Origin: Amycolatopsis alkalitolerans
GTDB taxonomy: Bacteria > Actinomycetota > Actinomycetes > Mycobacteriales > Pseudonocardiaceae
Reading direction: 5' to 3'
Length of the DNA: 64,000 nt
Assembly (NCBI RefSeq): GCF_006152065.1
Contig: NZ_VDFW01000021.1
Location: 60,374 to 124,373 of the forward strand
The position numbers and the translations under genes are program-made. The first letter of the stretch is position 1; every line of letters starts with the position of its first letter. This document shows, piece by piece, positions 50,289-51,826 of this stretch. The notes beneath the pieces were generated by a model that was not told the origin of the DNA, ran no database searches, and saw nothing but the letters and a program-made list of their open reading frames with translations.

Positions 50289-50591
50289 TGCCGTCTCCTT
50301 GATACCGGTAACGCCACACCGCCCGAAAACGATGCGACTGGTGGTCGAGGAGTACCCTTGACCACCGGAGGCGCCGCGTCAACGCGACCACCGGCACATT
50401 GTCCCCGGCCCGAGGAGGTGAGGAACGCACGATGAGTAGTGGCGATAGTCCGCTTCCTAGTAAATCCAGCGTTCCCCGGCCTGCCGGGTCTGGCATGACT
50501 CGCTAGCCCGCTCCCCGGGAGACGCTGGTCACGGCCGGGCGGACACCCCGCACGGCCGTCGTAGCACGCACTACGTCAGCCAGGAGTCCCC
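50289..50591 (+). promoter_or_regulatory. corA upstream region with leader ORF and alternative hairpins
   Basis: This 303-base region contains the MaoC promoter (left) and the corA leader (right). A 24-codon ORF at 50432-50506 has two GAGG-type ribosome sites just upstream. Hairpin A is CCCGGC-CT-GCCGGG (50475-50488), over codons 15-19. Hairpin B pairs 50466-50472 and 50475-50479 with 50522-50528 and 50515-50519. A and B share bases, so they exclude each other. A third, very strong 12-pair hairpin with one mismatch follows (50531-50542 with 50548-50559), then CGTAG-CTACG (50560-50575) next to the corA ribosome site AGGAG. The M-box (ykoK) consensus was looked for and not found. Confidence 0.6.
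50432..50506 (+). CDS. 24-residue proline-containing leader peptide of corA
   Basis: An ATG-to-TAG frame with ribosome site GAGG eight bases upstream. It encodes MSSGDSPLPSKSSVPRP followed by seven more residues. Prolines at 7, 9, 15 and 17 (P-L-P and P-R-P) recall the proline-codon leader of Salmonella mgtA, where ribosome progress couples Mg2+ supply to transcription. Third codon positions are unusually T-rich (AGT four times, CTT, CCT, GTT, TCT, ACT), unlike every neighbour, so the RNA structure and not the peptide may be what is conserved. It ends 85 bases before corA. Confidence 0.55.
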   Translation: MSSGDSPLPSKSSVPRPAGSGMTR

Positions 50592-51709: not shown

Positions 51710-51826
51710 ATGTCTCGCCTGCTGACCAACCTCAAGTTCTGGGCCCTGACGTTCAGTCTGCTGTGGATCGCGGCGGTCGTGTTCTTCATCGCCGACCACC
51801 CCGAACTGGCGAGAGCGGGCCGCTGA
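51710..51826 (+). CDS. 38-residue single-helix membrane microprotein after corA
   Basis: A short frame with a good ribosome site (AAAGGAG, eight bases before the ATG). The product is a basic start MSRLLTNLKF, a hydrophobic helix WALTFSLLWIAAVVFFIA and a short polar tail DHPELARAGR. It lies 35 bases after corA and 26 before the phosphoesterase gene on the same strand. In enteric bacteria small membrane proteins (MgtS, MgtR) modulate Mg2+ transporters, so a role with CorA is possible but unproven. Confidence 0.65.
   Translation: MSRLLTNLKFWALTFSLLWIAAVVFFIADHPELARAGR

Follow-up and report, generated by a model that had tools for sequence, protein, structure and literature searches.

A candidate translation-coupled switch built on a conserved upstream open reading frame in the corA leader of Pseudonocardiaceae

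The leaders of enteric corA and of mgtA, a gene that encodes a P-type ATPase, are the closest described systems to the corA leader analysed here. Control of the housekeeping Mg2+ channel CorA in high-GC Gram-positive bacteria is, to our knowledge, a largely open matter. In the enteric leaders, efficient translation of an upstream open reading frame (uORF) at high Mg2+ leads to an OFF fold and Rho termination, and poor elongation at proline and acidic codons at low Mg2+ leads to the ON fold, a mechanism established by experiment according to the available parts of two reports (PMC11552253, PMC11282234). The corL leader of Escherichia coli and Salmonella, as presented in the available text of PMC11552253, resembles the present leader in that corA lies downstream, two exclusive folds accompany the uORF, one fold holds the uORF ribosome site in a stem, and the prolines of the peptide are few. 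The present leader differs from corL in its in-frame AGU-A core and its very strong ribosome site; control by Rho and Mg2+ has been shown for the E. coli corL leader and may, by analogy, operate here. In mgtL, too, the N-terminal part of the uORF peptide contains acidic residues and prolines, and a Mg2+ transporter gene lies downstream (PMC11282234, in the portion available), but where mgtL has EPDP, which causes intrinsic ribosome destabilization, the present leaders have D-S-P-L-P, D-P-H-P and the like.

Two further systems are comparable on the actinobacterial side. The M-box, including a mycobacterial M-box over a conserved uORF, is likewise a form of actinomycete RNA control under Mg2+ (available text of PMC12810186), whereas in the present leader the uORF itself forms the switching helices. 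The ilvB-II attenuator of Corynebacterium is, like this one, an actinobacterial uORF with alternative stems, but it has a terminator-like stem and branched-chain amino-acid codons (PMC11109978, in the portion available), where the present leader precedes a metal channel gene and a search of it found no U-tract terminator. The open-access literature that was searched, with subscription papers, preprints and supplements outside its scope, yielded no actinobacterial corA leader; corA is absent from the available main text of PMC11109978, which reports novel RNAs from 50 genomes, and the available text of PMC12810186, on the mycobacterial M-box with its uORF, does not describe the present leader.

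The leader lies in a stretch of 64,000 nucleotides of the Amycolatopsis alkalitolerans genome (contig NZ_VDFW01000021.1), referred to as the window, and shows the features by which mgtL/corL-type leaders are recognized. A conserved uORF precedes CorA (a Pfam assignment, with translation read from conservation and transport from the family name); exclusive folds are predicted, one of which would engage the uORF ribosome-binding region (P1, which in the window occupies the spacer separating the ribosome site from the start codon); and in 91 of 103 uORFs an acidic residue is followed, after up to three further residues, by a proline within the first 14 positions, the motif being missing from the other 12. 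The preliminary description of this DNA had noted that an M-box consensus is not present, and RF00380 indeed found no match in the window or the genome in a search whose positive controls in Bacillus subtilis and Lactococcus lactis were recovered. No Rfam 15 family reached its gathering threshold in the window, and matches in the corA region (two) and in 16 relatives were at chance level. The best reading, by analogy, is that the leader works like corL and mgtL; the Rfam-level comparison detected no homology, so no membership is assigned. Positions of all features are collected in Table 1.

Table 1. Features of the corA leader and gene, in window coordinates
Feature	Position	Strand	Basis
-10-like element TACCCT (TANNNT type)	50353..50358	+	sequence
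uORF Shine-Dalgarno AGGAGGTGA	50413..50421	+	sequence
P1 5' arm GGAACGC, between uORF ribosome site and start codon; partner 50469-50475	50422..50428	+	
uORF, 24 codons, MSSGDSPLPSKSSVPRPAGSGMTR, ATG...TAG	50432..50506	+	coordinates include the stop codon
Acidic-then-proline codons D5-S-P-L-P9, proposed Mg2+-sensitive stretch	50444..50458	+	function by analogy with MgtL
Rare serine codon AGT (AGUA core), just 5' of the switching segment	50459..50461	+	conserved
P2 5' arm (hairpin B of the preliminary description)	50466..50479	+	covariation
Mid segment GCGTTCC in the uORF; P1 3' arm and part of the P2 5' arm	50469..50475	+	
Hairpin A of the preliminary description; local stem, not conserved	50475..50488	+	
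P2 3' arm, beyond the uORF stop codon	50515..50528	+	covariation
Independent hairpin P3, between P2 and corA	50531..50559	+	MFE, centroid, covariation
Small stem CGTAG/CTACG near the corA ribosome site	50560..50575	+	in fold; chance-level
corA Shine-Dalgarno AGGAG	50582..50586	+	sequence
corA, 360 aa, PF01544	50592..51674	+	Pfam CorA E 1.8e-56

The closest named relatives of the CorA protein encoded in the window are from Amycolatopsis (92%). Judging from the position of TACCCT, the transcript would start near 50365; the window leader has no match to the sigma-70 consensus, and GTAnnCT-like elements, a broad set picked by eye and counted without a background rate, stand at -130 to -35 of 90 of the 103 uORFs. 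The Shine-Dalgarno sequence of the uORF, AGGAGGTGA, is one that we take to be the complement of the 16S tail. The 24-codon frame is as it had been described, with P-L-P at codons 7-9 and P-R-P at codons 15-17 (50474-50482), and its third codon positions are T-rich as stated (T in 11 of 24 codons). The serine codon AGT is used four times in this short frame, compared with 2.9% of serine codons in 36 long ORFs of the window that were selected for GC3 > 0.85, a selection that itself disfavours AGT. The mid segment of the uORF is complementary to the P1 5' arm and, when extended, to the P2 3' arm; P1 and P2 use the same bases and are therefore mutually exclusive.

Conservation of this arrangement was followed in the best 80 of 215 corA relatives. 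A uORF with a strong Shine-Dalgarno sequence is present at the same place in 75 of the 80 loci, and in the window; five loci (L055, L060, L061, L065 and L067) lack the leader. The genera named in the titles of the relatives presumably belong to Pseudonocardiaceae, and the labels outside them are one Nocardia and one Rhodococcus. Applied to 61 corA loci from other families, a similar uORF rule gives a background of 19 matches, of which 17 have an S-T core and only two do not. GGAGGTG lies at most 26 nt upstream of all 103 uORFs, a count that holds partly by construction, since uORFs were picked by GGAGGT/AGGAGG/GGAGGG-type sites. The alignment of related corA upstream regions bears out the preliminary description in that the ORF is conserved and hairpin B, its name for P2, covaries.

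A covariance model (R1) of 12 base pairs was built from 36 of 76 leaders, none of them Amycolatopsis-type, and recovers the window leader out of sample at 30.3 bits (E 2.9e-4 in 475 kb). When R1 is run against the whole genome the window leader is the top match (E 0.004), followed by two weaker matches away from corA (E 0.04 and 0.88). Across 298 genomes of the order, searched with strict filters that miss weak matches, 38 genomes have a match at E <= 0.01 and 37 of these are in the window's family, which also includes members with no match. Among 29 new loci (of the 37 other matches), corA is directly downstream on the same strand in 28; the exception, L111, is also the sole match outside the family.

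The uORF evolves in two ways along its length. The distance from the start codon to the core takes ten different lengths, all of them 1 mod 3, in 89 of 92 distinct leaders, and the control distance, from the uORF stop codon to corA, is random with respect to frame (31/29/32). One out-of-frame core length was seen, in three Allokutzneria-type leaders: L066, L069 and L098 have one additional base between the AGTACC core and mid, which shifts the peptide frame and keeps the RNA core, and the uORF is still open. Of 99 leaders searched, 94 contain AGTA, and always in frame; four of the 103 (L070, L072, L100 and L105), in which placement of the core was unreliable, were left out of the frame and pN/pS tests. 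By raw counts over 1092 equal-spacing pairs, which are not independent of each other, pN/pS is 0.57 for the N-terminal part (1.47 and 1.70 in the wrong frames), 2.02 for the core and 0.98 for the tail beyond it. The N-terminal half of the uORF is thus shown by comparison, at the level of sequence, to be under coding constraint. Synonymous sites of the core hardly vary (pS 0.10), which points to RNA constraint there, and the value for the tail suggests that this part of the peptide has no constraint. Of 69 distinct N-terminal parts, 68 have an AG[TCG][AC] motif, and in 64 of these AGT encodes the core serine. These patterns bear on whether the leader could be a ligand-binding riboswitch that an open frame overlaps by accident. 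Such a riboswitch would account for a core conserved as RNA and not as peptide, and for the three Allokutzneria-type leaders that keep the RNA out of frame; we consider it very improbable, given an N-terminal part conserved as coding sequence with spacing in multiples of three, no Rfam match, and only three covarying helices.

At the level of the peptide, the P-R-P codons that had been singled out in the preliminary description are not a conserved feature, as the peptides of relatives do not keep them. Only 54 of the 103 uORFs have PxP or PP, a count on which proline-only sensing was rejected and which, together with the missing U-tract terminator, also spoke against a proline amino-acid attenuator. 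Cys and His codons recur in the uORFs of several lineages.

Pairing was examined in the 91 of 103 leaders (78 of them distinct) in which a simple rule identified a clear downstream arm; the other 12 were excluded from these tests and from the ribosome-blocking model below. In the window, a count by hand gives hairpin B 13 paired positions out of 14; one pair is G-U and the mismatch is C-A. The alignment of P2 holds 49 distinct joined arms from the 78 leaders, in a register chosen by complementarity, which inflates the percentage of paired positions. Seven of ten pairs are changed on both sides, a figure that 8 of 500 shuffles reach, and the covariation score is 0.249 as against 0.156 for shuffled arms (0 of 500) and at most 0.114 for slid ones; the number of further pair types does not exceed that of the shuffles (270 of 500). 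Of the 49 rows, 16 form the innermost pair and 33 leave it unpaired. A comparison by duplex energies, with no register chosen, gave the same direction: mid pairs better with its own whole downstream region than with those of other lineages in all 16 classes, a result that 0 of 5000 permutations reached. The mid:down result in the segment scan and class permutations shares the register choice, whereas the whole-region test does not.

The segment scan compared own with cross-lineage partners for all 55 pairs of eleven leader segments, using 77 leaders. The top pairs are mid:down, which is P2, and segB:rest, which is P3 and in which the own partner is better in 11 of 14 classes (each 0 of 5000). 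SD:mid, which is P1, comes third with 8 of 5000 and 9 of 14 classes, narrowly missing strict correction for 55 tests, and the next-ranked pairs reach 210, 229 and 261 of 5000. In class permutations that include the probable Streptomyces class described below, P1 favours its own partner in 14 of 16 classes (0 of 5000); without that class the figure is 11 of 15 (2 of 5000). A permutation run earlier, with class-size weighting, gave 146 of 2000. On these comparisons of sequences P1 is the weaker helix. Control pairings, four in one permutation test and one in another, showed no preference for the own partner. The preliminary description had placed the P-R-P codons on two mutually exclusive hairpins, A and B, and of this pair B stands while the conserved competitor is not A but the ribosome-binding region of the uORF. 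Hairpin A does exist in the window as a 5-bp stem, yet among 21 Amycolatopsis-type leaders it is found only there and in L104, and as a competitor it was discarded. The longer hairpin described downstream is P3, whose segments covary; the fold gives it 11 pairs, one fewer than the 12 reported.

A third pairing partner for the downstream arm, suspected by eye closer to corA, was dropped (down:rest, 4995 of 5000). A first RNAalifold run on an unanchored alignment retained only a 5-pair remnant of P2. The single-sequence fold of the window leader is unremarkable (z -1.49, with 14 of 200 shuffles as good), so the case rests on comparison and not on folding energy. Ordinary fold energy is also what GC-rich hairpins and an open frame arising by chance would give, and that reading, to which we attach practically no credence, is refuted by conservation, frame and covariation.

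When a ribosome is modelled on the uORF start codon, mean pairing of mid with the downstream arm over the 91 leaders rises from 0.44 to 0.69 and P1 falls from 0.33 to 0.00, the latter because the ribosome blocks its bases. The modelled states differ little in how accessible they leave the corA ribosome site (0.22-0.27), which is more accessible with an early ribosome than with a ribosome over mid in 37 of the 91 leaders. No segment covaries clearly with that site, the best pairs reaching 210 and 261 of 5000 in the 55 tests. Masking of the corA ribosome site was rejected as the output, on the small difference between modelled states and the absence of clear covariation. The small stem by the corA ribosome site, which the preliminary description had included in the layout, performs at chance level (mean score 10.15 as against 9.71 for shuffled sequences, with 43 of 92 leaders above the mean of their own shuffles). 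No intrinsic (U-tract) terminator was found in the window leader. With no U-tract terminator and no differential masking of the corA site, the output would most likely be premature Rho-type termination or decay of the leader. A leader that senses nothing might also be envisaged, in which the uORF and helices fix corA output at a constant, low or buffered level through re-initiation or mRNA protection. The strong uORF site would load ribosomes for this, and the missing link from switch to corA suits it; we hold it distinctly unlikely, because two covarying exclusive helices on one segment exceed what such a leader needs, and the 85 nt from uORF stop to corA in the window are far for simple coupling.

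The reading we favour, at a probability of about one half, is that the conserved uORF with P1 and P2 forms a switch coupled to translation, by which CorA production would increase whenever low Mg2+ slowed translation of the uORF or cut it short. From the sequence comparisons and the analogy with enteric leaders we infer Mg2+ as the signal, the assignment of ON and OFF states, and the output. Ribosomes would load on the strong uORF site during transcription. With ample Mg2+ they would pass the acidic-proline stretch and the AGU core and clear mid, so that P1 could re-form behind them. With scarce Mg2+ the acidic-proline stretch would make them stall or fall off at a point where they still occupy the P1 5' arm, and mid would be left to pair with the downstream arm. 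P2 is taken as the low-Mg2+ ON state on the logic of the enteric leaders and on the ribosome-blocking result. The same switch could instead respond to the general state of translation (slow decoding of AGU or proline codons, EF-P, charged tRNA or an antibiotic), with corA following. This alternative, which we rate as rather unlikely, draws on the retention of the rare AGT at the core in 64 of 68 cases, on the Cys and His codons that recur in several lineages, and on another bacterial uORF that senses ribosome-targeting drugs according to the available part of PMC12121999; the linkage to corA in 28 of 29 new loci weighs against it, as does the acidic-proline feature, which suits Mg2+ sensing of the MgtL type.

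The Mg2+-responsive switch that we favour may extend beyond Pseudonocardiaceae. A class-wide sample comprised 148 genomes, 116 of which have a CorA at the cut-off, and the regions upstream of 61 CorA loci were inspected. In one genus, probably Streptomyces, each of the ten genomes has a uORF of MDRSRPCSTTRSSGR type ahead of one of its corA copies, and GAAGAGC lies beyond the stop codon in all ten. Among downstream arms, GAAGAGC pairs best with mid (GCUCUUCC in most) in nine of the ten genomes, a different arm outscoring it in L127; a second complement of mid is the ribosome site, GGAGGAG. To judge by its sequence, this is the same uORF type with the switch spelled differently. L116, of another family (f22), has a uORF with ...SSPCSTSRS..., and in family f31 five loci have MNSGDPVSTCSRT-type uORFs and a sixth has the short MSQPPSTN. 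Nonomuraea gerenzanensis (Streptosporangiaceae) has a related uORF, MNPGDPSSTCFHTYGLRTPDHSNSAA, and in the f31 loci, which are similar to it, the ribosome site folds onto the 3' part of the uORF itself. The corA copies inspected in Nocardia farcinica, in Embleya and on a Streptomyces hirsutus plasmid have no such uORF, nor do the remaining inspected loci of the 61-locus set. Totals from a class-wide pattern search were discarded, as a reversed-pattern control gave similar counts, and only matches at already known corA places were used.

We advance only tentatively the wider proposal that these leaders could form an ancient actinomycete family, comprising at least Pseudonocardiaceae, probable Streptomyces and Streptosporangiaceae, in which the uORF carries an anti-Shine-Dalgarno sequence against itself and an acidic-proline peptide with a rare AGU would make the ribosome a Mg2+ sensor, independently of enteric mgtL and corL. 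If this is true, it would suggest that control by the ribosome as a Mg2+ sensor arose more than once. A conserved leader defined by sequence, with named arms, makes control of CorA directly testable in common laboratory streptomycetes.

Individual lineages show peculiarities of their own. Long uORFs with ...SASPCSTGR[VI]PAG... are found in three genomes of a single genus, g5 (L103 and L109/L112), where a clean compensatory change in P2, GCGTCCC/GGGACGC as against GCATCCC/GGGATGC, also changes Val to Ile. Two genomes of another genus, g3 (L105 and L114), have enlarged uORFs with repeated P-x-S-T units, such as MSSDDSPSSTSNPPSTSNPLSTPSPLSTGTASSRRSESA. In L016, L021, L034, L048 and L053, folds contain an extra hairpin of GUGUGAGCG...CGCUCACAC type, upstream of the uORF and near the predicted transcript start.

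About 35 bp 3' of corA, on the + strand at 51710-51826, lies what is likely a gene for a single-helix membrane protein of 38 aa (MSRLLTNLKFWALTFSLLWIAAVVFFIADHPELARAGR), which has no Pfam match. Of the 27 relatives L003-L029, 22 have a similar peptide with an FW motif after corA, the same rule not finding one in L016, L017, L023, L027 and L029. Enteric Mg2+ transporters have small partner proteins, and by analogy the 38-aa protein may be a partner of CorA.
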